32,081 nt of DNA, taken from assembly GCA_022448165.1 (NCBI GenBank), contig JAKVAS010000008.1:1-32081 (forward strand), written 5' to 3'. The translations under genes were made by a program, and so were the position numbers. How positions within the stretch are numbered: position 1 is the stretch's first letter; every line of letters starts with the position of its first letter. This DNA is from Crocinitomicaceae bacterium (GTDB lineage: Bacteria; Bacteroidota; Bacteroidia; Flavobacteriales_D; Crocinitomicaceae). Positions 5,641 to 24,756 of this stretch are shown here, in pieces. The notes beneath the pieces were generated by a model that worked only from the letters and a program-made list of their open reading frames with translations, was not told where the DNA came from and did not search any database.

Positions 5641-6318
5641 ATGATCCGTACAATTTTCATTTTCATCCTTGGTCTTACCCTTTATTTCTCAGCCTTTTCT
5701 CAAGTAGAAAAAGCTCCATTGAAGGTAATCGTTATGAATAAAGAACGAAAAGCAATTCCAAATGACAAAATCACTTTTATTGGTGAAAAGTCACATATAG
5801 AAATCACAGGTATCACCAATGAAATGGGACAGTTTATGGTTCACCTTCCTGCTGGAGATAATTATGGAATAAGAGTTGATGTAATTGGTGATGAGATAGA
5901 TTACAATACCTTTGAGGTCCCAACTCCACCGCCAGGATCTGTTTTTAATACCGTTACACTCGAAATTGTATATGACATGGAACAATCCATTACACTTGAT
6001 GATCTCCACTTTTCCTCTGGAAGTTCATCAATTAGTAAGCAAAGTTACGCACTCTTGAATCAACTTGCAGAATACCTCATTCGAAAAAAAACAACTAAAA
6101 TTAGAATTGAAGGGCATACTGATAGTGATGGAAACGAAACTTCGAATCAACAACTTTCTGAAGATCGCGCCAAAGCAATTCAAAGTTATCTCATAAAAAA
6201 AGGTGTTAATTCTAGTAATTTAACCGCTAAAGGTTTTGGCGAATCACAACCAATTGCAAGTAACGAAACAACTGAAGGGAAAGCCGAAAATCGAAGAACA
6301 GTGATTGTTGTATTATAA
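5641..6318 (+). CDS. OmpA-family outer-membrane/peptidoglycan-binding protein
   Basis: 225 residues. Residues 1-21 form a Sec signal peptide (ending FSAFSQ). A beta-rich middle (about 25-110) with VIVMNKERKAIPNDKITFIG and TNEMGQFMVHLPAG looks like a carboxypeptidase-regulatory or SpaA-like fold. The C-terminal 110 residues are an OmpA domain: the start SITLDDLHFSSGSS, the core RIEGHTDSDGNETSNQQLSE, DRAKAIQSYL, then GFGESQPIASNET and AENRRTVIVVL, including the Asp and Arg residues that bind diaminopimelate. It probably anchors the outer membrane to peptidoglycan. There is no transmembrane barrel, so it is a periplasmic or lipid-side anchor. Monocistronic by appearance. Confidence 0.85.
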   Translation: MIRTIFIFILGLTLYFSAFSQVEKAPLKVIVMNKERKAIPNDKITFIGEKSHIEITGITNEMGQFMVHLPAGDNYGIRVDVIGDEIDYNTFEVPTPPPGSVFNTVTLEIVYDMEQSITLDDLHFSSGSSSISKQSYALLNQLAEYLIRKKTTKIRIEGHTDSDGNETSNQQLSEDRAKAIQSYLIKKGVNSSNLTAKGFGESQPIASNETTEGKAENRRTVIVVL

Positions 6319-6343
6319 TTCAACACTCAATCCAAAGATCAAT

Positions 6344-6351
6344 TATCTTTG
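6344..6351 (+). promoter_or_regulatory. Predicted -7 box of the HI0933-family gene
   Basis: TATCTTTG, a perfect TAnnTTTG element 18 bases before the ATG at 6370. Transcription would begin near 6356. No matching TTG is found at the standard -33 distance. Confidence 0.5.
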
Positions 6352-6369
6352 CCTCAGAATTGAACACAT

Positions 6370-7587
6370 ATGCGAGTTGCAATAATTGGAGGTGGTGCTG
6401 GTGGTTTTTTTTCAGCCATTGCTGTGAAGGAAAACCATCCAGATGCTGAAGTTATAATTTATGAGAAATCACTAAAAGTCCTTTCTAAAGTTAAAATTTC
6501 TGGAGGCGGACGTTGCAATGTAACGAATGGATGTGATACTATAGGAGAATTATCTCAAGCATACCCTCGAGGATCCAAACAACTCAGAAAAGCCTTTGGA
6601 ATCTTCAACAACAAACACACAATGGAATGGTTTGAAACAAGAGGTGTTCCACTAGTAACTCAAGAAGATCTTTGCGTGTTCCCAGTCTCTCAAAACTCGC
6701 AGAGCATTATTGATTGCTTTCTTAAAGAAGTAAAACGTCTAGGCATTTCCGTTAAAACAAAACATGGAGTTCAATCTCTAGACCCTTCTAAAGGGAAACT
6801 ACAATTACAGTTTCTTGATGAAAATCAGCAGTCCGAAATTTTTGATAAAGTAATTATTGCTACTGGAGGACATCCTAAAGAAAAAGGGTTTGACTGGCTT
6901 CGAAATCTCGGGCATTCCATTGAAACTCCTGTGCCTTCACTCTTCACCTTTAATATGCCCTCTGAATCAATTACAGAACTAATGGGAGTTGTTGTGGAAG
7001 AAGCTCTCGTTAGTATTCAAGGAACAAAGCTAAAAGGAAACGGTCCGCTTTTAATTACACACTGGGGAATGAGTGGGCCAGCAGTTTTGAAGCTCTCTGC
7101 ATTTGGAGCACGAATTCTTAATGAATTAAATTATGACTGCAATGCTCAAATCAATTGGGTAAATAATATAAATACTGAAATTGTAAAAGAAACGGTTCTC
7201 GCACTGTTTAAAAAACATTCAAATAAACAAATTTCAAATGTTCGTCCTTACATGCTTCCTGTTCGTTTATGGCATTACCTAATTGATCGGTGTGGTTTAT
7301 CCAAAGAAACAACCTGTTCTCAACTCGGAAACAAAGTAATCAACAAAATCGTAAATGCATTGACAAATGATGTATACGCGGTAAAAGGAAAGACAACATT
7401 TAAGGAAGAATTTGTAACCTGCGGTGGCGTATCATTAAGCGATATCAATATCAAAACAATGCAAAGCAAAGTTGTTGAAAACCTATACTTCACAGGAGAA
7501 GTGCTAGATATGGACGGAATTACTGGAGGATTCAACTTTCAGGCTGCATGGACTACAGCTTTCATTGCAGGAAAGCTACTGGACTAA
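6370..7587 (+). CDS. HI0933/YhiN-family FAD-dependent oxidoreductase
   Basis: 405 residues. The N-terminus RVAIIGGGAGGFFSAIAVKE is the GxGxxG FAD-binding motif, with IIYEKS as the ribose-binding acidic strand end. SGGGRCNVTN (about 44-53) is the HI0933 family hallmark, and the C-terminal TCGGVSLSDIN with LYFTGEVLDMDGITGGFN closes the second FAD-binding half. These flavoproteins are common but poorly characterised; a clostridial member (BaiN) acts on bile-acid intermediates, and that specific reaction should not be transferred here. Length is normal and all family motifs are intact. It has its own predicted promoter and is followed by a gene with a different promoter type. Confidence 0.88.
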   Translation: MRVAIIGGGAGGFFSAIAVKENHPDAEVIIYEKSLKVLSKVKISGGGRCNVTNGCDTIGELSQAYPRGSKQLRKAFGIFNNKHTMEWFETRGVPLVTQEDLCVFPVSQNSQSIIDCFLKEVKRLGISVKTKHGVQSLDPSKGKLQLQFLDENQQSEIFDKVIIATGGHPKEKGFDWLRNLGHSIETPVPSLFTFNMPSESITELMGVVVEEALVSIQGTKLKGNGPLLITHWGMSGPAVLKLSAFGARILNELNYDCNAQINWVNNINTEIVKETVLALFKKHSNKQISNVRPYMLPVRLWHYLIDRCGLSKETTCSQLGNKVINKIVNALTNDVYAVKGKTTFKEEFVTCGGVSLSDINIKTMQSKVVENLYFTGEVLDMDGITGGFNFQAAWTTAFIAGKLLD

Positions 7588-7605
7588 GAACTTTACATTT
7601 TCTTT

Positions 7606-7621
7606 TGGCACGTACTTTGCA
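7606..7621 (+). promoter_or_regulatory. Sigma-54 (RpoN) promoter of the DUF3108 gene
   Basis: TGGCACG (7606-7612), four bases, then TTGCA (7617-7621) is a full match to the -24/-12 consensus TGGCACGNNNNTTGCA, with the invariant GG and GC 10 bases apart. It lies in intergenic DNA on the right strand; transcription would start near 7632, 19 bases before the ATG at 7651. Confidence 0.8.
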
Positions 7622-7625
7622 TTCT

Positions 7626-7646
7626 TGAGTGTAAGACAAACACTCA
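7626..7646. repeat. Inverted repeat across the predicted sigma-54 start site
   Basis: TGAGTGT (7626-7632) and ACACTCA (7640-7646) are perfect 7-base arms around a 7-base spacer. Since transcription should begin near 7632, only the right arm would be in the mRNA, so a protein-binding site is more likely than an RNA hairpin. Confidence 0.4.
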
Positions 7647-7650
7647 TACC

Positions 7651-8439
7651 ATGAAAAAGTATCTATATTCTTTAGGATTAGCAGGGCTTTTAGTCGCGAT
7701 GACAAGCTCATCAATGATTACTTACCCATCTGTTTCAAATACTGCATTTAAGCAAGGTGAAAAACTAAGATACCGTGTAACCTATGGGTTTATGGATGCC
7801 GGAGAAGCCATCTTAGAAGTAAAACCAACATCAAAGAAAGGAAATTCCCGTGCTTTACATCATACGGTGGCAACTGGTCGTACATTAGGAGGGTTCAACG
7901 CCTTCTACAAGGTAAATGACAAGTACGAAAGCTACATTGATCAAAAATCAATCATGCCTTGGTATTTCAAACGGGATGTAAACGAAGGAGGCTTTAAGAT
8001 CAACCAATATTATACATTCAAACAACATCACAGTAAGGTAAACAATGGGAAGAAGGATTTCAAGGTAAAGATGGGAATTCAGGATATGATCTCTTCTTTT
8101 TACAAGGCAAGAACCCTTAATTTCAAAGGAATGAAAAAAGGAAAAACCTTCTCATTCGATTGCTTTATGGATGATGAAGTTTTTAAACTAAAAGTTAAAT
8201 ATGTTGGAGATGAGATTATCAAGATAAGAAAGGGAAAATTCAAGTGTCATAAATTTGTTCCAGTTGTGCAAACAGGAAGGTATTTTAAGAGTGAAGAAGA
8301 TGTAAATTTTTGGGTAACCGCGGATAAAAATAAAATTCCGGTACTTGTAAAAGCAAAGATACCTGTTGGAACTGTGAAACTACATTTAGTTGAGTGGAGT
8401 GGTTTGAAGAATGAGTTAAGCAGCAAAGTGAAGAAGTAA
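7651..8439 (+). CDS. DUF3108-domain secreted protein, sigma-54 controlled
   Basis: 262 residues with an N-terminal signal sequence (MKKYLYSLGLAGLLVAMTSS). The mature part starts FKQGEKLRYRVTYGFMDAGEA, the characteristic opening of DUF3108, and continues with the beta-rich repeats FYKVNDKYESYID and FWVTADKNKIPVLVKAKIPVG typical of the family. The protein is basic and probably periplasmic or attached to the outer membrane. Molecular function is unknown. The gene is preceded by a complete sigma-54 promoter and followed by a strong terminator, so it is a single-gene unit switched on by RpoN and an unseen enhancer-binding activator. Family call is sure. Confidence 0.85.
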   Translation: MKKYLYSLGLAGLLVAMTSSSMITYPSVSNTAFKQGEKLRYRVTYGFMDAGEAILEVKPTSKKGNSRALHHTVATGRTLGGFNAFYKVNDKYESYIDQKSIMPWYFKRDVNEGGFKINQYYTFKQHHSKVNNGKKDFKVKMGIQDMISSFYKARTLNFKGMKKGKTFSFDCFMDDEVFKLKVKYVGDEIIKIRKGKFKCHKFVPVVQTGRYFKSEEDVNFWVTADKNKIPVLVKAKIPVGTVKLHLVEWSGLKNELSSKVKK

Positions 8440-8458
8440 CAATTTCAACAGTCATTGC

Positions 8459-8490
8459 AAATAGGGGTGAAATTTCACCCCTATTTTTTT
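8459..8490 (+). terminator. Intrinsic terminator of the DUF3108 gene
   Basis: AATAGGGGTGAAA and TTTCACCCCTATT form a perfect inverted repeat centred at 8472/8473, followed on the plus strand by seven T. The T-run is poor on the minus strand, so it mainly ends the DUF3108 transcript. Confidence 0.88.
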
Positions 8491-8497
8491 GCCGATC

Positions 8498-8845
8498 CTA
8501 TACGCTCCCAAACATATGGATCCAAATAATTCTTGAATACCTGTAATTAGGAACACTCAATAGAAAAATTGCAGCTAGGATAGATATTAGAAGAACTATT
8601 GGGTTATTTGAAAAAAAACTTCCGATTAAATACGCGATAATACCTTCCAATACAACCAAACCATAACTCACATACATTGCCCCAACAAAGAAACCAGGTT
8701 CTTTTTCAAATCTTATTGAACAATTCGGACATTTTTTATTCATCTTTGGAAATCCAAAAGAAAAAAAAGAATCCTTAAAGATTTTCGCGTGTTTCTCTTT
8801 ACAATTATGACACTTCCCATTTATCATACGAATAACTCTGCTCAT
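8498..8845 (-). CDS. DUF983 family small membrane protein
   Basis: 115 residues from the start MSRVIRMINGKCHNCKEKHA. Two Cys pairs (CHNC and CPNC, about residues 12-15 and 39-42) form a zinc-ribbon-like cytoplasmic part, followed by GFFVGAMYVSYG and two hydrophobic segments (about 56-98), the DUF983 layout. A longer in-frame ATG at 8875 exists, but the predicted -7 box lies at 8865-8872, downstream of it, so the start at 8845 is preferred. Function of the family is unknown. The terminator at 8459-8490 lies between this gene and the convergent DUF3108 gene. Confidence 0.82.
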   Translation of the reverse strand: MSRVIRMINGKCHNCKEKHAKIFKDSFFSFGFPKMNKKCPNCSIRFEKEPGFFVGAMYVSYGLVVLEGIIAYLIGSFFSNNPIVLLISILAAIFLLSVPNYRYSRIIWIHMFGSV

Positions 8846-8864
8846 AATGACTATTTTTACATTA

Positions 8865-8872
8865 CAAAGATA
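8865..8872 (-). promoter_or_regulatory. Predicted -7 box of the DUF983 gene
   Basis: TATCTTTG on the minus strand, a perfect TAnnTTTG. Transcription from near 8860 gives a leader of about 15 bases to the ATG at 8845 and excludes the upstream ATG at 8875. Confidence 0.55.
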
Positions 8873-8901
8873 CATTGTGAGTGGTTATTTTTTATTAATC
8901 G

Positions 8902-8931
8902 ATTGAGACACTCTCTTGTACTATTGAGACA
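8902..8931 (+). promoter_or_regulatory. Direct repeat (operator candidate) in front of the AraC gene
   Basis: ATTGAGACA occurs at 8902-8910 and again at 8923-8931, exactly 21 bases apart (two helical turns), ending 2 bases before the ATG at 8934. The second copy overlaps TACTATTG (8919-8926), a one-mismatch TAnnTTTG box. AraC-type proteins bind such same-face direct repeats, so autoregulation is likely. Confidence 0.55.
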
Positions 8932-8933
8932 TT

Positions 8934-9815
8934 ATGAACAAAGTTCCCGTTTTATCCATACAACCATTTAATTCAGAACTGAATGAATCTGAAATCTATG
9001 TAAATGATTTCAGATCTCACCTCATCAAGAATAAAGATGTAATTCTAAAACCGCACAAACATGATTTTTTCTTAACCATAATCTTCACTAGGGGCACGGG
9101 AAAACACACCATTGATTTCAATTCTTATCCGGTCCAAACTGGAAGTGTATTCATGCTTCGCCCAGGGCAATCGCACAATTGGGAACTTTCTGATGACATT
9201 GATGGATTTGTTTTTTTTCATTCTCCCACATTCTATTCTTTATTCAATCAAGGTGTAGAAATTCTAAGCTTTCCATTTTTCTATTCTAGCTACAATGCTC
9301 CAAATGCCAAACTTTCTTCGAGCGAAATGTCTGTTATCCGACCGTTATTCGAACTCTTATTGAAAGAATTCAAGTCCGATCAATTGCTACGTCAACAAAA
9401 AATTGGAGGACTAATAAAGCTCATTTATATTGAGCTGACACGATCTTACATTAAACAGCATACACATTCATCAGAAAACCCACCCATGTACCTTAAGAAA
9501 CTGAATGAATTCGAACAACTAATTGACAAGTACTTTATTCAAGAAAAATCCGTTACAGTTTACGCCAATTGGTTAAACATCTCAAGAAAACATTTAAATA
9601 GAATCACAAACCTTATGCTCGGAAAAACGGCGACACAAGTAATTAGCGATCGTGTTATCCTTGAAGCAAAGCGACTCATTGTAGAAAACAACGAAAGCTT
9701 GAAAGAAATTGGATTCCATTTAGGTTATTCAGATTACGCCTATTTTTCACGCGTCTTTAAAACCCAAACAGGGCTGAATCCAAAAGAATTTAGATTCAAA
9801 TATCACAAATCTTAA
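8934..9815 (+). CDS. AraC-family transcriptional regulator
   Basis: 293 residues. The N-terminal part (about 15-130) is a cupin-like sensor domain (LKPHKHDFFLTIIFTRGTGK, FMLRPGQSHNWELSDDIDGF). The C-terminal 100 residues carry two helix-turn-helix units: VTVYANWLNISRKHLNRITN and then the signature LKEIGFHLGYSDYAYFSRVF with FKTQTGLNPKEFR. The start at 8934 directly follows the 21-bp-spaced direct repeat. Its stop overlaps the stop of the convergent hydrolase gene by 4 bases, with no terminator between them. The effector and targets are unknown; the adjacent hydrolase or the divergent DUF983 gene are candidates by position only. Confidence 0.88.
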   Translation: MNKVPVLSIQPFNSELNESEIYVNDFRSHLIKNKDVILKPHKHDFFLTIIFTRGTGKHTIDFNSYPVQTGSVFMLRPGQSHNWELSDDIDGFVFFHSPTFYSLFNQGVEILSFPFFYSSYNAPNAKLSSSEMSVIRPLFELLLKEFKSDQLLRQQKIGGLIKLIYIELTRSYIKQHTHSSENPPMYLKKLNEFEQLIDKYFIQEKSVTVYANWLNISRKHLNRITNLMLGKTATQVISDRVILEAKRLIVENNESLKEIGFHLGYSDYAYFSRVFKTQTGLNPKEFRFKYHKS

Positions 9816-11554
9816 GGCTGAACAATTGGCAACGTAATGAATGAAAATTCAGTTTTACCGTGATGAATTGTCAATTTTGGTGTTCCCCGCTTAGGCAAAC
9901 GATCAAAAACACTTTTATCCGCACCTGCGATAGCAACACGAATCGAGTGCCCTTTTTTCACCAAGACAGATATTGGCCACAACTTAAACGCAACAAGCTC
10001 AACATTTCCAGGTTTCATCAATGCACTATCCTCCTCATTGAACGTATGCATATTAAACTGCTCATTCGTTTGTAACGCTTCTTTCCTATGAATAAGCCGT
10101 AACCCTCCTTCCGTTATATATGTGCTACTTCCATCCGGCGCAACATCTTCCAAATATACGAATACACCACCATCAGTATGTGTTGAGGATAATTTTAAAC
10201 TCACAGTTGGCGTTCCTGTTATTTGAACCTCTTCCTCAACAGGCTGAGACGTATACACCAACATTCTTTCATCCATTTCATTACGATGATGAAGACCTAT
10301 AACAGGTCCACCCATCTGCGTTGTCCAGCGATTCTTTTTACTAGTATAGACTCCAAAATCTACCTTGTATGTATCGCTACCTTCTACTTCTTTAGGTTTT
10401 ACTTTACTCAATCCACCCTCTTCTTGAAAGTAGTAATTAACAACAGTTGCATTAGGAACAGGCCATTCATTCGATTCTTTATACTTCTCTTCTCCTAAAT
10501 TGTAATATTTAATGAGTGGCCAATCTTCAACCCCTTTATCAATTCCCTTTATGTAATGGTCGAAAAAATCTAATTGTAACTGATTCTGCTCGCTTATTCG
10601 AGGGTTCGGAAAATACAATGTGTCATTTCCCCTAAACGGACTTGCATGACTCCAACCTCCATGCGAAGTTGCCATCAATAATACTTTTTGAGGATTATTG
10701 AAATGCTCAAGTCGTGTAATTGCCCCTTCTGCCGTTCCAGCATCCATCCAACTTGCCAAAATGAGCATGGGTACTTTAGATTGTTCAATCTCCTTTTTCC
10801 AGTGCACAACTGAACAATCTTCGTAATCAAAAACTCCATTTCCTGAATTTCGAAAATGATTATTACTAACCAAGTCATATACGTTAGGATTCTTCTTATG
10901 CTCTGAGATTGCCGCTTTTAAAGAATCTTCATCAACTGGATGTATAGAACTTCTCAATATTAGAGAGTTATTTCTATCTAACAACCTTACATATATACTC
11001 CATTTCCGAACAAATGAACTTGCCATCATACCATAAGGTCGAACCGGGCTTCTATAAACATCAAAGTCAGACCAGCCAGGTATCACTGCTTTTATTGATG
11101 GATGGTTTGTCGCACACAACAACTCTGCTGTGGTGCCTGTATAGGAGGTTCCGTACGACCCAACTTTCCCGTCAGACCAAGACTGTGAGACAACCCAATC
11201 CAAGACTACTGAAGCGTCCATCACTTGAACAGGAGAATATTCGGAAATCCTCGTTCCAAAAGAAGCTCCAGTTCCACGAGTATCAACAATCACAATAATA
11301 TAACCATTATCGTTAAAATACTTATCTCGACCATGTAATTGAGGTACAGGTTCTTTCTTAGTAACCGAAGCTCTCCAATAACGTTCAAATTGAATTAAAA
11401 CAGGTAACTTGCCTCCCTTATAATCTTTGGGTAAATAAACATCTACAGCAAGCTTGACCCCATCTTCCATTGGAACATAATAAGAACTTAGTTTTTGCGC
11501 TCTCAATTTTCCAAGCACAAAAAAGCTCATTAAAATTAAAATCAAAGTTTTCAT
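9812..11554 (-). CDS. Secreted CocE/NonD-family (X-Pro dipeptidyl-peptidase-like) hydrolase
   Basis: 580 residues with a signal peptide (residues 1-19, ending KLRAQ). An alpha/beta-hydrolase domain follows: VYLPKDYKGGKLPVLIQFER, the oxyanion region DTRGTGASFG (91-100), the nucleophile elbow YGTSYTG with Ser137, a helical cap, then probable catalytic Asp271 (ILASWMDAG) and His in TSHGGWSHASP (298 or 303). The C-terminal jelly-roll (about 400-580, VQITGTPTVSLKLSSTHTDG) is the PepX_C domain. Relatives hydrolyse esters, acyl-amides or peptides; the substrate here is unknown. It lies 80 bases after the tandem UvrA-like gene on the same strand. TTG-N16-TACTTTTT near the gene start could be its own weak promoter. 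Confidence 0.88.
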   Translation of the reverse strand: MKTLILILMSFFVLGKLRAQKLSSYYVPMEDGVKLAVDVYLPKDYKGGKLPVLIQFERYWRASVTKKEPVPQLHGRDKYFNDNGYIIVIVDTRGTGASFGTRISEYSPVQVMDASVVLDWVVSQSWSDGKVGSYGTSYTGTTAELLCATNHPSIKAVIPGWSDFDVYRSPVRPYGMMASSFVRKWSIYVRLLDRNNSLILRSSIHPVDEDSLKAAISEHKKNPNVYDLVSNNHFRNSGNGVFDYEDCSVVHWKKEIEQSKVPMLILASWMDAGTAEGAITRLEHFNNPQKVLLMATSHGGWSHASPFRGNDTLYFPNPRISEQNQLQLDFFDHYIKGIDKGVEDWPLIKYYNLGEEKYKESNEWPVPNATVVNYYFQEEGGLSKVKPKEVEGSDTYKVDFGVYTSKKNRWTTQMGGPVIGLHHRNEMDERMLVYTSQPVEEEVQITGTPTVSLKLSSTHTDGGVFVYLEDVAPDGSSTYITEGGLRLIHRKEALQTNEQFNMHTFNEEDSALMKPGNVELVAFKLWPISVLVKKGHSIRVAIAGADKSVFDRLPKRGTPKLTIHHGKTEFSFITLPIVQP

Positions 11555-11634: not shown

Positions 11635-14600
11635 TCAATTACAGATTAATTCGCCCCCTATCTGTCCACTTCCAGGTCCAAGTTCTACTAGCTCATCTGC
11701 CTGTTCTATTAAAGCTCGATTATGTTCAACAAAAATAATCGTATCACCATTATCCACAATCGACTTAAAAACCTTCATTAGATGAATGATGTCAAAATAG
11801 TGAAGTCCCGTACTAGGCTCATCAAACAAATATAACGTTGTTCCTTTTCTTTTCTCAACTAGTGCTGTAGCCAACTTCAATCGTTGAGCTTCACCTCCTG
11901 ATAAAGTATTTCCAGCTTGACCTAATTGTAGATGTCCAATTCCAACCTTTTGCAAAACATTCAACATTTCGACAAGCATTTCATCTTTAAAAAACAAACA
12001 AGCCTCATCAATTGTCATTTGTAACACCTCCCCAATAGAGTAATCATCAAGTTTACAAGCAAGAATTAATCTACTATATCGAAGCCCCTTGCAAGAATCA
12101 CATGGAAGCCAACAATCACTCATAAAATCCATACTTGTTTTAACCTTACCATTTCCTCCGCAGGTTACACATTTTCCTTTTTTACTCTGATAAGAAAAAT
12201 CTGCCTTTTTGAGAGAAGAAATCTTTGCTTCATCCGTTTTAGAAAAAATGGTTTTAATCTTATCCAAAATACCAGTATAAGAAACTGGTGTCGTCAACCG
12301 ACCTCCTATTAAAGCCTCTTGATCGATCAATAAAACAGTCTCAAACTGCTCAAATCCTTCGATTGATTCACAGCCAACTGCTCTCTTCTTAAGCCATGAA
12401 GCATGTAAAACACCCTTCATTAAACTAGATTTCCCACTACCTGAAACCCCTGTTATGGCAGTCATTCTTCCTAAAGAAAATAAAACATCAATGTTCTTAA
12501 GATTGTTGATGAACGCTCCCTTCACACCAAAACGACCTTCTTTCTTGTTTGTTTTTGACACCTGTTGAAGCATTGGTTCATTCAACAATCTATAGGTAAC
12601 AGAATTTGGACATTGATCAATTTCTTGCAACTCTCCTTGAAAAACAACTTCTCCTCCCAACTTCCCTGCAAGCGGCCCCATTTCAACCAAATAATCTGCA
12701 TTTTCAATAAATGTCTGATCATGCTCGACAACAATTACTGTATTTCCGTTAGAAACAATTTTTCGTAAAACATCAATTAAAACCTTCACTTGCCTTTGAT
12801 CCAATCCAATTGTTGGCTCATCTAACACATATGTCACTCCGAATAAATGGGCTGATGTTTGTCCAGCTAAAGTAACTCGTTGTCGTTCCCCTCCAGAAAG
12901 TGTTTTTACAGACCTATTTAAACTTAAATATCCGAGCCCAAGATCAATCATTGTCTTTAACGAAGCCTTTACCATTGGAATAATAGTTTCAGAAATTGCT
13001 ATGATTACCCGATTCTTCTCTATTGATAAATCCTCAATCAACTTCAAACAAGACGTAATAGGCATTTGCGAAACCTCATGAATCCCCATTCCTAAAAAAG
13101 TAGTGGTTAACAAGTCCTTTTTCAATCGACTCCCCTTACAACATTCACACGGAACCTCATGTAACAAATCCTCAAGATCTTTAATATTCTTATTATTTAG
13201 TTTTCGTTGATATTCATCATCAATATAATTGCAAAATCCCATCCATTTTGCTGTTAATGACTGAACCCCTGTACTTGATTTTGTGGTATAATTCCAAGTT
13301 ACATTCCACTCTAAATCTCCTGTTCCGTACAAAATTTTATTTTTGACCTCATTCTTTAGCTCCGTCCAGGGTAACTGAAGATTCCAGTCATATTGTAATG
13401 CCACCTCTCTTAACGTAGCCATAAACTGACCATTCAAATCTCCATAATACCTAATACCTTTTTTACTTGATATTGCTCCTTCAAGTACCGTTTTTTGAGG
13501 ATTGATTATGATTTTATCCGGATCACATGTCAATTGAACACCTAATCCTTGACACTCTGGGCATGCTCCCAAATGATGATTAAATGAATAATGTTGAGCG
13601 CTAATCTTTTTTCCTTCCTGCTGAGCTATTCGTGAATACAATAAGCGGAACGAATCATAAACACCTGACAATGTACCAACTGTGGATCGTTTAGAAGGGT
13701 TTCCTACCCTTCTATTTACTCCAATCGCAGGACCTAATCCCTTACACGAAAAAATCTCCGCTTCATTATTCTGATGTATAAAGCTTCTATTATATGTTGA
13801 TAATGATTCGGAAAAACGTGCTTTCGCTTCAGAAAACAATGTATCATACACCAATGATGACTTTCCACTGCCCGAAAGCCCCGTTACAACCGTGAGTTTA
13901 TTTTTAGGAAAGCGCACATCAACATTCTTCAATGAATGAGTAGTAACTCCCGTTAAGGCAATTTCCTTTTCACGATTTATTACTATCGATTCCTTTTGGT
14001 TTAATGCATACTTTTTTCTCTGAGGCTTTGGCTTTCCCTGATAAATAATTTCTCCTCCATTTCTACCGCTTTTGGAACCTAGCTCTATATGCCAATCACT
14101 CCAACCAATAATGATTTCACTCTGCTCAACGCAAACAATTGTATTTCCTTTTTCCTTGATCCGTTCAAAAAGGTTCATTAACGTTTTAATATCTTCATGA
14201 TGCAGCCCAACACTTGGTTCAACAATGACAAACAATGTATCACCCGTATCTTTCTTTTGTAATTGATTGGCAATCTTTATACGCTGTGCTTCTCCACCAG
14301 AAAGTGTTGTTGAAGATTGTCCAAGCGTTAAATACCCCAATCCTATTTCTTGCAGGATATTCAACCCCTTTAATACTTTTCTTTCGTCTGAGAAAAGTCT
14401 GATTGCTTCATTTACTGACAGCTTGTAAACATCAGCAATTGATAACCCCTTATATTTTATCTCTAAAGTTTCTTTATTGAAGCGATCTCCGTTACATGTC
14501 TCACAAAGCAAATCAACATTTCCTAAAAAATGCATTCCAATTTGCGTTTTTCCAGCTCCTTGACATTGCTCACACCTTCCTCCTTTATTGTTAAATGAAA

Positions 14601-16404
14601 ATCGCGACTTAGAATACCCCTTCGATTTTGCGTCAAAAGTTCCAGCGTAAATATCGCGAATATGATCAGACAACCCTAAATAAGTTGCAGGATTACTTCT
14701 AGGTGTTTTCCCTATTGGCGTATGATCAATAAAAATCAATTTATTAACCAACTCAACATTCATATGCTCTTTCAACTTCGTTGACGTCTCTATTTCCAAC
14801 CCTAAATGCTCTCGAACTACCTTCAACAAAGTTCCTTTAACCAAGCTAGATTTTCCCGCTCCTGACCTTCCACTAACGATATTGAGCATGCCCAATTGAA
14901 ACGTTACATCAACACGTTTTAAATTATTCTCAAAACATCCCAATAAGTTAATTGACGCTCCCTTCACTTTTTCCTTCGGTTCATCCTTTATAGTTCCCCC
15001 CTCCATTAAGGCCTTATAAGTAAGGCTTCTACTCCTCAAGGAGGACTCCTTGACAAACTGACATAACGAACCATTAAAGAGAACTTCGCCACCGTTTACA
15101 CCTGCTCTTGGCCCAATATCAATGATATGATCAGCACTTGCGATCGTATCTAAATCATGCTCCACAACGATAACCGTATTTCCACGCTTGACCAACCCTT
15201 TAAAATGGTGAATCATTCGTTGATTCTCTTCTGGGTGCAGCCCAATAGAAGGTTCATCAAATACATAAAGTACATCACTTAAAGATACCTCAATCTGATT
15301 TGCTACTCGAATTCGCTGAATTTCGCTAGCTGAAAGGGATTTTGCCGACCTTTCCAAAGAAAGGTGTCCCAAACCAAGATCCTCTAACAAATCAATTTGG
15401 CTTCTGATTTTTGCGACAATTTGTGTCCCAACCTCATTCCAATCATTAGATTTAATCCAAGCATTAAGTTCTGTCAAATCTAATGTTGTTAAATCATTAA
15501 TTGACCTTTCCTTCACTTTGACACTTAAGGCATCAACATTCAACCGTGCTCCATTACACTCTTCACAGTTAATTGAATGAACATATTTAAGAATATTTGC
15601 ATTTCTATCTCTTCGTAGAATATCCGACATAATTGAAATAATCCCTTTATAATATCCTTCTTCCCGAGGCTTAGCCTTTATTCCTGTCCACTTCAATCGA
15701 GATTCTAAGCTATGCTTACCGAAAGGAACCTTTATTTTATCACTTCCGTATAAAATCACATCTTTTTGTCTAGTCGTCAAATCATTCCATGCTATGTCAA
15801 CATTAAATCCTTCCGCTTCGCACACCTGATTCAGCACATCAATAGTTACTTGAGAATACATAATATAACCAGTGGGCAATGTCGGTGCTAGTGCTCCTTC
15901 ACGAATACTTCTTTCTGGAAACTGAACCAATCTATTTAAATCAATTCTCTCCTTACCTATTCCATTACACCGTTTACATTTCCCAATATCTGAATTAAAG
16001 GAAAATAGTGACCGTGAAAGTTCAATGTCCCTCTTAGATCTCCCTACTCTAGCAAACAGCAAACGTAACAAATCATATAAATCAGATATTGTCCCAACCG
16101 TTGAGCGTGCATGCATCCCTGTTGTTTTTTGGCCAATAACGATCACTGGTGAAAGTCCCTCAATCGTATCAACATCTGGACGATTTAATTTCCCCATAAA
16201 TTGCCGAGCAAAAGAAGGCATTGTTTCAAAATATCGGCGTTGACCTTCCTTAGCTAACACATCAAAAATCAAACTTGATTTACCCGAACCAGAGACTCCA
16301 GAAACCACAATAAACTTATTGTGTGGAATATTCACTGAAATATTTTTCAAGTTATTGGCCTTTGCACCTTTAATTACAATTTCTGAATGTTTTTTTGAGG
16401 TCAT
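11635..16404 (-). CDS. Tandem (double-length) UvrA-like ATPase with four ABC domains
   Basis: 1589 residues, about twice a UvrA2-type protein. Walker A motifs (GxSGxGKSS) are at about 36-44, 511-519, 842-850 and 1319-1327; zinc-type Cys pairs (CKRC, CEEC; CEQC, CETC; CPEC, CECC; CVTC, CDSC) mark four UvrA modules. After LLRLLFARVG and SFRLLYSRIA the chain goes straight to the next zinc motif, so both halves lack the UvrB-binding domain of true UvrA, as in UvrA2/DrrC relatives. The C-terminal half has intact signatures (LSGGERQR, LSGGEAQR), Walker B (VLDEPT, LFDEPS) and switch His. The N-terminal half has LSASE at 357 in domain 1, and in domain 2 IVEPS in place of DEPS and EQ in place of EH. 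It probably binds DNA as a built-in pair, in protection from DNA damage or intercalating compounds; canonical UvrABC excision is unlikely. Confidence 0.87.
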   Translation of the reverse strand: MTSKKHSEIVIKGAKANNLKNISVNIPHNKFIVVSGVSGSGKSSLIFDVLAKEGQRRYFETMPSFARQFMGKLNRPDVDTIEGLSPVIVIGQKTTGMHARSTVGTISDLYDLLRLLFARVGRSKRDIELSRSLFSFNSDIGKCKRCNGIGKERIDLNRLVQFPERSIREGALAPTLPTGYIMYSQVTIDVLNQVCEAEGFNVDIAWNDLTTRQKDVILYGSDKIKVPFGKHSLESRLKWTGIKAKPREEGYYKGIISIMSDILRRDRNANILKYVHSINCEECNGARLNVDALSVKVKERSINDLTTLDLTELNAWIKSNDWNEVGTQIVAKIRSQIDLLEDLGLGHLSLERSAKSLSASEIQRIRVANQIEVSLSDVLYVFDEPSIGLHPEENQRMIHHFKGLVKRGNTVIVVEHDLDTIASADHIIDIGPRAGVNGGEVLFNGSLCQFVKESSLRSRSLTYKALMEGGTIKDEPKEKVKGASINLLGCFENNLKRVDVTFQLGMLNIVSGRSGAGKSSLVKGTLLKVVREHLGLEIETSTKLKEHMNVELVNKLIFIDHTPIGKTPRSNPATYLGLSDHIRDIYAGTFDAKSKGYSKSRFSFNNKGGRCEQCQGAGKTQIGMHFLGNVDLLCETCNGDRFNKETLEIKYKGLSIADVYKLSVNEAIRLFSDERKVLKGLNILQEIGLGYLTLGQSSTTLSGGEAQRIKIANQLQKKDTGDTLFVIVEPSVGLHHEDIKTLMNLFERIKEKGNTIVCVEQSEIIIGWSDWHIELGSKSGRNGGEIIYQGKPKPQRKKYALNQKESIVINREKEIALTGVTTHSLKNVDVRFPKNKLTVVTGLSGSGKSSLVYDTLFSEAKARFSESLSTYNRSFIHQNNEAEIFSCKGLGPAIGVNRRVGNPSKRSTVGTLSGVYDSFRLLYSRIAQQEGKKISAQHYSFNHHLGACPECQGLGVQLTCDPDKIIINPQKTVLEGAISSKKGIRYYGDLNGQFMATLREVALQYDWNLQLPWTELKNEVKNKILYGTGDLEWNVTWNYTTKSSTGVQSLTAKWMGFCNYIDDEYQRKLNNKNIKDLEDLLHEVPCECCKGSRLKKDLLTTTFLGMGIHEVSQMPITSCLKLIEDLSIEKNRVIIAISETIIPMVKASLKTMIDLGLGYLSLNRSVKTLSGGERQRVTLAGQTSAHLFGVTYVLDEPTIGLDQRQVKVLIDVLRKIVSNGNTVIVVEHDQTFIENADYLVEMGPLAGKLGGEVVFQGELQEIDQCPNSVTYRLLNEPMLQQVSKTNKKEGRFGVKGAFINNLKNIDVLFSLGRMTAITGVSGSGKSSLMKGVLHASWLKKRAVGCESIEGFEQFETVLLIDQEALIGGRLTTPVSYTGILDKIKTIFSKTDEAKISSLKKADFSYQSKKGKCVTCGGNGKVKTSMDFMSDCWLPCDSCKGLRYSRLILACKLDDYSIGEVLQMTIDEACLFFKDEMLVEMLNVLQKVGIGHLQLGQAGNTLSGGEAQRLKLATALVEKRKGTTLYLFDEPSTGLHYFDIIHLMKVFKSIVDNGDTIIFVEHNRALIEQADELVELGPGSGQIGGELICN

Positions 16405-21774: not shown

Positions 21775-23994
21775 ATGAGTTTCTTTAATCGATATTTAGC
21801 ATTGTTCTTTTTGGTCTTCTGCCTTTTTACGGCAAGCAATTGTTATGGTCAGCAATCCCGAGAAGAACAGTTAATACGTGCCTACGAAGCAGAACCTCAA
21901 TCTAAAAAGAAATTCAAACGGCTCATGGCCTTAGGGGAATATTACAAAGAATCTAATATTCATTTAGCGGACTCTATACAACATATCATCCTATCTGAAA
22001 GTCGAAATTTCGAGGATTCACTTCGGTTCAACGCGTTATTTTTTAGTGCCGAAATAGCGGAATGTATGGGAGATCAAGATGAATACTTCAGAAAAATACT
22101 CGCTTGCCAACCCTTTATTAGTAAACTTAATTCGGATGACGTACTCTTTAAAGTATATCGTCATTTAGGATACTATCATAGTAGCATCCTAGAATCAGAA
22201 ACTGCAGACTTCTACCTTAATCTAGCCTTAAGAATAGCTAAGAAGAATCGAAGTAATGAAAAACTCTCCGAAGCCTATAACTACCTGGCGAAAAATTTCA
22301 TGATGCAAAACGAAAAGGACTCGTCCTTAATGTATGTGGAAAGAGCAATTCGATTTGGTCGACGAAATACAAACAAGACAATTTTGGCTAAAGCCTTTAA
22401 TACCCAAGCAGAGATTTATGATTTCTTTGGCCAAGTAGAGCTAAGTGTTGCCAAAAACCTTATCAGCTTAAAATTAGTAGAAGAAGTTCAAAACATCTAT
22501 CTGATCGCAAAACTATCAAGGGAAATAGGTCAAGAACAAGCATTAATACTAAACCTCGACGATGCCGAACTATATTTTAGACGATCATTAAAATATGCCA
22601 CCCAGATTCATGACTTTCGACAAATGGCCCTGGCATTATCCCATCTTGCTTCCGTTCAATTAAAACGTTCTCAATTTGAACTAGCTACAAAGAACGCTAA
22701 TCTAGCAATCAGTTATCTTTCTCAATTAAACGATGCAAACGGCCTTGGAAAAGTTCATAACATTTTAGGCATGGTCTACCAAGAACAACAAAATTATGAC
22801 GAGGCCTCAATTAATTTTAACAAAGCATTAGTCTATTACGAATCGAGTAAAAATCGGGAGAAAATTGCTGGAGTTTACCACAATGTAGGAACCGTTTTTA
22901 AGCAACAAGGAAAATATCGAAATGCGTTAAACTACTTAAATCGATCCATTGAGATTCGCTCAAAATTCGGTGCTAAAAATCAAATCTATAATACCTATCG
23001 AGTAATTGCAGACGTATATAAAGAGATCAATGACACCCAAAAGTCGATTGAATACCTAGAACTATACTTGAATTATATAGATAGCAACACAACTATACAG
23101 GCAGCAACAAAAATTGCCGAGCTAAGCGAGTCTTATCGTTCGGAACAACGTGAAAGATTAATTAATTCCCAAGCCGACTCTATCGAACGCGAGCGGCAAC
23201 GGAATTATGTCGCCAACACCAAGCTAGAAAACAGTCAATTGAAGAATAACTTTCAAATGTATATTATCATTGCATTTTTGATTATTATCATTTTAGCAGG
23301 GATAGTTCTATTTTACCGATGGAATCAGACAAAAATAAAACAAGAGCAAAAAGAAACAGAAATGTCTCAAAGGGTTTTAAGAGCCCAAATGAATCCACAT
23401 TTTGTCTTTAATGCTATGTCGGTTATCCAAAGTTACATCTACGAAAATGACATTGAGAACTCAACCAAATTCTTAGTTAACTTCTCTCGTCTTATGCGGT
23501 TAATCTTGGAAAATTCCCCAAAAGAATTCATCCCTATTCGGACCGAAATAGAAATTCTGCAAAAATATCTCGAAACACAAAAATTACGCTTTGAAGATCG
23601 CTTTCAATTTGAAATAGTTGCCGGAGATAGCGTTATGGATGAATTTGCAATTATCCCACCAATGATTACCCAACCATTTATTGAAAACTCAATAGAACAT
23701 GGTCAGCTGCATACAATCGAAGGGGGCTTCATTCGAGTTTTATTTGAGAAAAAAGATGACATGTTACACATTTCGATTCGAGACAACGGCATTGGAAGAA
23801 AAGCCTCTAGACTAAATAAGAAAAGCTCTGCTCATAAAAGTATGGCGATGGAAATAACTAGAGAACGAATTGATAATTTAAACAACAAATACAAGACAGA
23901 AGGTTATCTTACACTAGAAGATTTTGATAAAAAGAATGAAACTGGAACAAACGTTTTAATTTCATTACCTTACAATGTTGAACCAAACTCTTAA
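21775..23994 (+). CDS. TPR-containing LytS-type sensor histidine kinase
   Basis: 739 residues. A signal peptide (about 1-26) is followed by a periplasmic region of tetratricopeptide repeats (about 80-440; for example GKVHNILGMVYQEQQNYDEA and GVYHNVGTVFKQQGKYRNAL), a coiled coil, a membrane segment at 495-516 (MYIIIAFLIIIILAGIVLFY) and a cytoplasmic His_kinase/HATPase module. The phospho-acceptor is His542 in QMNPHFVFNAMSVIQ; the ATP site has PPMITQPFIENSIEHG and RDNGIGRKAS. This is the common Bacteroidota LytS-like design, in which TPRs sense or bind a periplasmic partner. The LytTR regulator begins 9 bases after its stop, so they form a two-component pair. Signal unknown. Confidence 0.92.
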   Translation: MSFFNRYLALFFLVFCLFTASNCYGQQSREEQLIRAYEAEPQSKKKFKRLMALGEYYKESNIHLADSIQHIILSESRNFEDSLRFNALFFSAEIAECMGDQDEYFRKILACQPFISKLNSDDVLFKVYRHLGYYHSSILESETADFYLNLALRIAKKNRSNEKLSEAYNYLAKNFMMQNEKDSSLMYVERAIRFGRRNTNKTILAKAFNTQAEIYDFFGQVELSVAKNLISLKLVEEVQNIYLIAKLSREIGQEQALILNLDDAELYFRRSLKYATQIHDFRQMALALSHLASVQLKRSQFELATKNANLAISYLSQLNDANGLGKVHNILGMVYQEQQNYDEASINFNKALVYYESSKNREKIAGVYHNVGTVFKQQGKYRNALNYLNRSIEIRSKFGAKNQIYNTYRVIADVYKEINDTQKSIEYLELYLNYIDSNTTIQAATKIAELSESYRSEQRERLINSQADSIERERQRNYVANTKLENSQLKNNFQMYIIIAFLIIIILAGIVLFYRWNQTKIKQEQKETEMSQRVLRAQMNPHFVFNAMSVIQSYIYENDIENSTKFLVNFSRLMRLILENSPKEFIPIRTEIEILQKYLETQKLRFEDRFQFEIVAGDSVMDEFAIIPPMITQPFIENSIEHGQLHTIEGGFIRVLFEKKDDMLHISIRDNGIGRKASRLNKKSSAHKSMAMEITRERIDNLNNKYKTEGYLTLEDFDKKNETGTNVLISLPYNVEPNS

Positions 23995-24003
23995 ACTAAC
24001 GCT

Positions 24004-24756
24004 ATGAGAAAAGTACTGATCATTGACGATGAAAATCGCACCCGCTCCTTAATTGCAAAAATGATAGACTCCTTTGGATATGACATCCAAACAATTCCTG
24101 AAGGGGAAAATGTACAATCAGGAATTAAAGCTATACAGAAATACAATCCGGATATTGTCTTTTTAGACATTCAAATGCCAGACGGAACAGGGTTTGATGT
24201 AATAAGATCAATTGAAGATAAAAACTTTCAAGTCATATTCATTACTGCGCATGAAGAGTTTGCTATTAAAGCCATTAAATTCAGTGCACTGGACTATCTT
24301 TTAAAGCCTGTAGATTCTTCTGAATTACGTTCAGCCTTAGACAAAGCGATTGAAGCAATTGAAGCAATTGAAGAATCTAAATCTAACACTCAATATGATG
24401 CTCTAAATTCAAATATTCAACCTAACGAAAAGCGCCGTTTAGTATTAAAAACTCAAGAAAGTGTTCATGTCGTGGAGCTGGACCAAATTATTAGATGTGA
24501 AGCAGATCGTAATTACACTTCGTTCTTTTTAAAAGAGAATAAGAAAATTCTTGTATCCAAAACACTAAAAGAATATGAAACACTTCTTTCAAGTCATAAT
24601 TTCCTACGTGTACAGCAATCACACCTTATAAATATCACCTATGTTGATCGCTACGACAAGAAGAATGGAGGCGCTGTAGTAATGAAAGATGGCTCTGAAG
24701 TACCATTATCTCCAGCAAAAAGAGACACCTTTTTTAAGCGTTTAGAAAATCTTTAA
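24004..24756 (+). CDS. LytTR-family response regulator
   Basis: 250 residues. Receiver domain 1-120: acidic pocket IIDDE (D8, D9), phospho-acceptor Asp55 in FLDIQMPDG, Thr81 in FITAHEE, Lys101 in LLKPVDSS. A linker with a triple AIE repeat (about 115-123) leads to a LytTR DNA-binding domain (about 146-250) with RCEADRNYTSFFL, SKTLKEYE, FLRVQQSHLINITYVDRY and EVPLSPAKRD, all family features. It is translated right after the kinase gene and is its partner. LytTR proteins bind pairs of short direct repeats; I could not define a site. The gap that follows it (24757-25137) contains an RNA-like structure. Confidence 0.94.
   Translation: MRKVLIIDDENRTRSLIAKMIDSFGYDIQTIPEGENVQSGIKAIQKYNPDIVFLDIQMPDGTGFDVIRSIEDKNFQVIFITAHEEFAIKAIKFSALDYLLKPVDSSELRSALDKAIEAIEAIEESKSNTQYDALNSNIQPNEKRRLVLKTQESVHVVELDQIIRCEADRNYTSFFLKENKKILVSKTLKEYETLLSSHNFLRVQQSHLINITYVDRYDKKNGGAVVMKDGSEVPLSPAKRDTFFKRLENL
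24346..24372 (+). repeat. Three tandem 9-bp units in the response-regulator linker
   Basis: GCGATTGAA and then two copies of GCAATTGAA, encoding AIE three times between receiver and LytTR domains. Length changes would stay in frame, so linker length could vary by slippage. Confidence 0.7.

Follow-up and report, generated by a model that had tools for sequence, protein, structure and literature searches.

A single-chain double UvrA in Bacteroidota with one degenerate ATP site and a nearly frozen insertion domain

Two UvrA-like units in one chain

We analysed a window of 32,081 nucleotides from a Crocinitomicaceae bacterium (GenBank GCA_022448165.1, contig JAKVAS010000008.1), the host assembly of which is a draft of 306 contigs that is 86.5% complete, with the gene of interest on contig 285. 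At positions 11635–16404 the minus strand contains a frame that starts with ATG and continues for 1589 codons without a stop, giving a protein of 1589 amino acids; the plus strand across this interval has many stops and is not open. A first-pass annotation made from the sequence alone had placed the gene at these coordinates with the right number of codons and had left its strand, which is minus, unstated. The protein consists of two UvrA-like units with a short link between them and carries four ABC domains and eight CxxC pairs (Table 1), an anatomy that we regard as virtually certain. As that annotation had proposed, the four ABC domains are in one chain and the four P-loops in one frame, with their lysines at residues 42, 518, 848 and 1325, and all eight Cys pairs were located as CxxCxG motifs starting at residues 143, 280, 611, 634, 948, 1086, 1412 and 1435. 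All 33 full-length doubles retain both cysteines of each of the eight motifs. The four signatures (357 LSASE, 701 LSGGE, 1169 LSGGE and 1501 LSGGE) and the four Walker B/Glu positions (384 DE, 729 VE, 1196 DE and 1529 DE) were found as well, but they are not all intact: one of each is degenerate, and the two belong to the same composite site.

The gene is preceded on the same strand by a small SpoU-type methyltransferase, lepA and leuS, and a CocE/NonD-type hydrolase adjoins it downstream. Next to leuS, on the opposite strand, the window also encodes a TPR sensor histidine kinase and LytTR response regulator pair (21775–24756).

Table 1. Features of the double UvrA gene, in coordinates of the window
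Feature	Position	Strand	Basis
Whole gene: single-chain double UvrA, 1589 aa	11635..16404	-	open frame and relatives
Half 1 (residues 1-805), a full UvrA-like unit lacking the UvrB-binding domain	13990..16404	-	domain matches, model, translation
Half 2 (residues 806-1589), a full UvrA-like unit lacking the UvrB-binding domain	11638..13989	-	domain matches, model, translation
Link joining the halves, about residues 789-818	13951..14040	-	translation
Walker A of proximal site P1, intact	16276..16299	-	site scoring
Half-1 insertion domain (residues 155-275), first of 16 regions in conservation	15580..15942	-	33 doubles
Near-invariant loop of half-1 insertion domain, residues 225-254	15643..15732	-	conservation and model
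Degenerate ABC signature I, half 1 (LSASE), D1	15322..15336	-	site scoring
Walker A (GRSGAGKS), NBD-II of half 1; Lys present here, P-loop shorter in family B	14848..14871	-	site scoring
Degenerate Walker B, NBD-II of half 1 (VE instead of DE), D1	14218..14235	-	site scoring
Switch His position, NBD-II of half 1 = Gln761, D1	14122..14124	-	site scoring
Walker A of proximal site P2, intact	13858..13881	-	site scoring
Half-2 insertion domain, residues 961-1080, ordinary conservation	13165..13524	-	33 doubles
Walker A of distal site D2, intact	12427..12450	-	site scoring

Both halves matched PF17755 (UvrA_DNA-bind, the insertion domain) in a Pfam scan. Neither half matched PF17760 (UvrA_inter, 'UvrA interaction domain'), which we took as the UvrB-binding domain, and the same scan recovered both families in the canonical UvrA of this genome. 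In an alignment, no residue of either half fell opposite residues 131–245 of E. coli UvrA, presumably the range of its UvrB-binding domain. The absence of this domain from both halves, which had been noted from the sequence alone, was thereby upheld. We modelled the halves separately with AlphaFold, with 20 of the 33 full-length doubles in the input alignments, and obtained mean pLDDT values of 82.0 for half 1 and 86.1 for half 2. The first 39 PDB matches of each modelled half were all UvrA, UvrA2 or Ecm16 chains, and both halves are thus predicted to have the UvrA fold.

Both halves exceeded the cut-off of the UvrA model TIGR00630 (830 and 741 against 729.8). This model fails to distinguish UvrA from UvrA2, since a Deinococcus radiophilus UvrA2 also exceeded its cut-off (759). 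Against NF001503, a canonical UvrA model with a cut-off of 1147, half 1 scored 850 and half 2 scored 746, and the whole chain exceeded the cut-off (1580.9) solely through the sum of its halves.

Distribution of the double UvrA

We searched for relatives at several taxonomic depths. A scan of species genomes for exact matches to six peptides from the window protein, which by design reaches close relatives and was the sole search to cover genomes of phyla beyond Bacteroidota, returned ten relatives, of which nine were complete and one was truncated by the end of its contig. In the order to which the window belongs, 28 of the 299 genomes sampled had a match at E 1e-190 or better. Eighteen of these carried proteins of the window's type, hereafter family A (some partial or split), and ten carried a second type, family B, at 37–39% identity and with frames of about 1500–1550 amino acids. 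The double was present in nine of the 16 genomes sampled from the window's genus and in eight of the 395 sampled from its class. Among those eight were genomes G944, G835 and G921, which form a third lineage at 44–47% identity. One family B member (G355) lay outside the window's order. Carriers include the isolate Crocinitomix catalasitica ATCC 23190 and metagenome-assembled genomes labelled Kordia sp. and Roseivirga sp. The distribution of the double is patchy.

For comparison of complete proteins we assembled a set of 33 doubles, comprising the window protein, 20 complete family A orthologues, 11 family B proteins and that of G944. Counts of site residues omit five partial proteins (L009, G443, G458, G473 and G921, of which L009 and G473 have contigs of equal length), the double of G670, which is in two frames, and that of G835, which has an in-frame stop. 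Seven loci (G558, G575, G669, G691, G867, G1001 and G1020) lie on contigs equal in length to one already counted and were taken once. In G670 (locus L103), the double is split into overlapping frames at 6117–8036 and 7864–10890, which match residues 1–621 and 617–1587. In G835 (locus L118, 1247–2374 and 2378–6103), the double is interrupted by a single in-frame TAA close to the first Walker B. The family A protein of G682 (locus L102, 3677–8767) has 1696 amino acids and exceeds the window protein by about 107 residues in half 2 (891 versus 784).

Origin of the fusion

The first-pass annotation had taken the fusion to be old and had proposed a tree of each half with single-chain relatives. We built such a tree by a quick method from 64 rows, namely 21 of the 33 doubles cut into halves and 22 single-chain UvrA and UvrA2 proteins. 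All half-1 rows fell into one clade and all half-2 rows into another, each with an SH-aLRT support of 100. Within the window protein, half 1 and half 2 share 34% identity; between half 1 of this protein and half 1 of a family B member the value is 45%. Because the two clades are separate and the halves are so divergent, the fusion looks single and ancient, its age being as had been suggested, and it cannot be a duplication introduced by assembly.

The halves may group with known class II proteins: the branch that has half 1, half 2 and single-chain proteins together on one side had a support of just 78, in a tree from which two long-branch single-chain proteins were omitted. The best tree, from 18 doubles and 20 single-chain proteins, left the two halves unjoined, and joining them was not rejected (p-AU 0.178). 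The double may therefore have arisen by one tandem duplication or by fusion of two different UvrA proteins, both of which are compatible with the trees.

The distal ATP site of half 1

As described in an excerpt of PMC6486640, UvrA forms composite ATP sites, of which the proximal site (P) combines ATP-binding domain I with signature domain II and the distal site (D) combines ATP-binding domain II with signature domain I. We scored the P-loop Lys, Walker B Asp/Glu, switch His and signature of each site in 21 family A proteins, 11 family B proteins and the protein of G944. The proximal site of half 1 (P1) was fully canonical in all 33 doubles (32 of 32 in families A and B). The distal site of half 2 (D2) was fully canonical in 32 of 33 (again 32 of 32 in families A and B), the exception being G944, with LSAGE. 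The proximal site of half 2 (P2) was fully canonical in 20 of 21 family A proteins and in G944 but in none of the 11 family B proteins, all of which have the signature LSSGE together with intact Lys, Asp/Glu and His; these three elements of P2 are kept in all 32 proteins of families A and B.

The distal site of half 1 (D1), by contrast, was fully canonical in G944 and in none of the 21 family A or 11 family B proteins. Family A proteins had lost the switch His and altered the signature without exception (21 of 21 for each), 19 of 21 had lost the Walker B Asp, and two (G545 and G579) had lost the P-loop Lys. In family B, the P-loop of D1 is shortened, with no aligned Lys, His is replaced by Asn and the signature reads ISSGD in 11 of 11 proteins, and Asp is replaced by Glu in ten of 11. 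Twenty-two single-chain controls (seven canonical UvrA proteins, 14 UvrA2-like proteins and the paralogue from the window's own genome) kept Lys, Asp/Glu and His in both sites; signature positions, chiefly those of the distal site, differ in some of these proteins. Six of six Bacteroidota UvrA2-type single-chain proteins (L017, L018, L019 and L022–L024) have LSPGE as signature I, a slight change that affects a distal site, the type of site that has degenerated in the doubles.

The third lineage varies at this site. D1 is intact in G944 and in G835, the two pieces of which were aligned apart, and G921 has Ser in place of the Walker B Asp, with signature I off the fragment. One particular composite site is thus degenerate throughout two families and is altered in a member of a third lineage. 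Since G944 and G835 have an intact D1, loss of this site is not needed for a double to exist. Trees of 14 doubles and eight single-chain proteins were compatible with decay of D1 in one event or in several, either of which may have occurred: the half-1 tree grouped families A and B (91/85), with p values of 0.078 for A with G944 and 0.137 for B with G944, and the best half-2 tree grouped B with G944 (64/51), with p values of 0.24 for A with B and 0.41 for A with G944.

The insertion domain of half 1

A second asymmetry lies in the same half. Among the 33 doubles, mean pairwise identity was 0.51 over the whole protein and 0.76 in the half-1 insertion domain, which ranked first among 16 regions; the corresponding domain of half 2 had a value of 0.48. 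When family B was taken alone, the zinc stretch beside the half-1 insertion domain was higher still (0.86 versus 0.82). The domain was more alike than the rest of its half in 527 of 528 pairs of doubles (210 of 210 within family A and 53 of 55 within family B), compared with 267 of 528 pairs for half 2. The same comparison gave none of 276 pairs for 24 canonical UvrA proteins, seven of 28 for eight UvrA2-type single-chain proteins and none of six for four Deinococcus/Firmicutes/Streptomyces-type single-chain proteins; pairs in all these comparisons are not independent, and misalignment of a variable region could lower the identity in the canonical control. These two asymmetries, D1 and the insertion domain, both in half 1, mean that the protein is more than the covalent dimer of the first-pass annotation: its halves have specialised.

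Across the 33 doubles, 47 of the 121 positions of the half-1 insertion domain are invariant, many of them around residues 225–254. Residues 229–249 of this loop have pLDDT values under 50 in our model. The loop is independent of the decay of D1, because G944 has both the loop and an intact D1. According to an excerpt of PMC6486640, the insertion domain sits on signature domain I. As signature I is the partner in the distal site, the frozen arm of half 1 stands on the domain whose ATP site is degenerate, so the doubles of families A and B would have a candidate reader loop, possibly disordered, on a signature domain with a dead ATP site.

Used as a probe, the half-1 insertion domain matched two of 395 sampled genomes of the phylum, both of which carry doubles. 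It gave no match in plasmids and, among phage records, just two weak partial matches (33.8% over 74 residues), and against the PDB nothing better than E 0.015. Scans of viral contigs, which reached close relatives only, returned no confirmed relative.

Genome context

All 37 double-bearing genomes that we searched have a UvrA with PF17760, and in 36 of these same 37 there was a second match to a PF17760-bearing UvrA with a weaker score. The double is therefore an accessory gene, which supports the first-pass annotation as far as an accessory role goes. The window's own genome also has matches to UvrB and UvrC. Its second PF17760-bearing UvrA (G000:C12, locus L104, 6718–9420) has a diverged insertion domain.

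The genes around the double share little. No neighbour cluster covers more than five of 36 loci, so the gene context neither supports nor names a target; one cluster of this largest size consists apparently of translation-type GTPases, and its member in the window is lepA. We scanned 125 neighbouring genes encoding at least 90 amino acids and lying within two places of the double at 33 of the 36 loci (all except L009, G670 and G835). Among the families listed (25 of 123), no Pfam theme emerged, the commonest family occurring in six of the 125 genes, and PADLOC matches, sought in neighbours of the doubles alone, were scattered. Single neighbours matched models of DRT9 reverse transcriptase, PDC-S02 and type II restriction or methylation, again among the 25 of 123 families listed. 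A DsbA-like gene, of which one copy was scanned, precedes the double on the opposite strand at five loci (L094, L096, L097, L102 and L103), all in genomes of the window's genus.

Discussion

On sequence evidence, this protein comprises two UvrA units that lack the UvrB-binding domain, joined in one chain by what seems to be one old fusion, with intact catalytic residues at three composite ATP sites, one degenerate site and a nearly frozen insertion domain in half 1. The explanation that we favour, with a confidence that is about even, is that the double is an accessory, UvrB-independent, single-chain UvrA pseudo-heterodimer that protects DNA. The nearest tested parallel is Ecm16, which according to an excerpt of PMC10192343 lacks the UvrB-binding domain and protects against bisintercalators. 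Its protection against echinomycin persists when uvrB is knocked out, and its insertion domain contributes to the choice of substrate. By analogy with Ecm16, the double would guard DNA against a single type of bound ligand or adduct, and we put the chances of such a protective, UvrB-independent role at roughly one in two.

How such a protein might work can be outlined from the two asymmetries. The two halves, which we modelled singly, would pack in cis around DNA in the manner of a UvrA dimer. The chain may then no longer need to dimerise, and it may act on intercalators, as the first-pass annotation proposed. Half 1 would be a fixed reader, in which the near-invariant loop of the insertion domain recognises one particular DNA-bound feature. 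The reader arm would be borne by signature domain I, and because this domain partners the degenerate D1, turnover at that site would no longer move the arm. Half 2, with two live sites, would together with P1 drive an ATP cycle of loading, grip and release. Lacking the UvrB-binding domain, the protein would clear or shield the bound ligand or adduct as Ecm16, DrrC and UvrA2 do, rather than feed excision by UvrB and UvrC. We hold this division into a reader half and a motor half with somewhat less than even confidence. The fuller proposal is more tentative, at about one chance in three. In it, half 1 is dedicated to reading one specific modification of DNA or one small molecule bound to it, half 2 is the motor, and the whole would be a separate, UvrB-independent DNA-protection system of Bacteroidota. 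The conserved insertion domain of half 1 could bind a protein rather than DNA.

We considered several other explanations. The double could be a helper in nucleotide-excision repair that finds damage and hands it over to canonical UvrA and UvrB. Its UvrA fold, the UvrB and UvrC matches in the same genome and the scores of its halves, just over the TIGR00630 cut-off, are in keeping with this idea, which we nonetheless consider rather unlikely, given that neither half has a UvrB-binding domain, that each half scores under the stricter NF001503 cut-off and that all 37 double-bearing genomes searched have another UvrA with that domain. It is improbable that the double is an anti-phage or anti-plasmid DNA-sensing ATPase. 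The patchy distribution across the order and the genus, the changing neighbourhoods and the single neighbours that match DRT9, PDC-S02 and type II restriction or methylation models would fit such a role. However, defence matches among the neighbours (those of the doubles alone were scanned) are few, the scans of viral contigs, which reached close relatives, found no relative, and the PADLOC matches of the double to mad3 and mad8 are unspecific, being given also by the genome's own canonical UvrA and by D. radiophilus UvrA2.

Decay of D1 might instead mark the start of loss of function under relaxed selection, a reading that draws on the degenerate site itself, the changed P2 signature of family B, the double in two frames in G670 and the in-frame stop in G835. 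This is very unlikely, because P1 and D2 are fully canonical in all 32 proteins of families A and B, the cysteines of all eight CxxC pairs are kept in every full-length double and the half-1 insertion domain is nearly frozen. An assembly artefact or a chance concatenation of two uvrA genes, which the incomplete draft state of the host genome might have suggested, was rejected and has next to no probability, as full-length relatives with this architecture occur in 20 further family A genomes (including an isolate scaffold of Crocinitomix, L011, and the single-contig genome G909) and in 11 family B genomes.

UvrA works as a symmetric dimer with four ATP sites, and its protomers are hard to tell apart in mutants. 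If the fuller proposal holds, the double would be, to our knowledge, the first natural UvrA in which the four ATP sites, and likewise the two insertion domains, have separate roles. As a natural, covalent and asymmetric version of UvrA it offers a means of assigning functions to individual sites and to each arm, and it hints that Bacteroidota contain a specific DNA target. It also suggests that a label such as 'excinuclease UvrA' would conceal a distinct protein family. Among the matches listed in a search of open PubMed Central papers, we found no title or abstract on a Bacteroidota double UvrA family.

Among the closest known systems are the class II UvrA or UvrA2 proteins, such as Deinococcus UvrA2 and Streptomyces Ecm16 and DrrC. 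These single units are presumed to dimerise. The double shares with them the UvrA fold, two ABC domains per unit, the insertion domain and the lack of a UvrB-binding domain, the last being a feature of Ecm16 in an excerpt of PMC10192343. It differs in having two diverged units per chain, where the 14 UvrA2-like proteins sampled are units of 744–888 amino acids, and in having one degenerate distal site, where these 14 keep Lys, Asp/Glu and His; none of the 14 falls within the half-1 or half-2 clade. Canonical UvrA (UvrA1) has the fold, zinc motifs and P-loops in common with the double, but it has about 940 amino acids, PF17760 and a variable insertion domain, whereas the double lacks PF17760 and its half-1 insertion domain is frozen.

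The main UvrA of Chlamydia is itself of double length, whereas the double described here is an extra gene beside another UvrA. Against NF001885, an NCBIfam model of 1809 positions that we take to represent the chlamydial double-length protein, the window protein reached 962.5 with a cut-off of 3054, and the genome's own canonical UvrA reached 729.5. The first-pass annotation had described known UvrA proteins as having two ATPase domains, but a double-length chain has a precedent, since Chlamydia ct333 (5,361 bp) already encodes, according to an excerpt of PMC6686042, a UvrA of 1,786 amino acids (CT333) in one polypeptide, as here. What is new is the asymmetry, with D1 degenerate and the half-1 insertion domain frozen, rather than double length as such.

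Asymmetric ABC ATPases with one degenerate site are familiar from TM287/288 and TAP. In these, as in the double, one composite site lacks catalytic motifs; they are transporters, whereas the double is a UvrA-family protein with four sites, one of which is degenerate.
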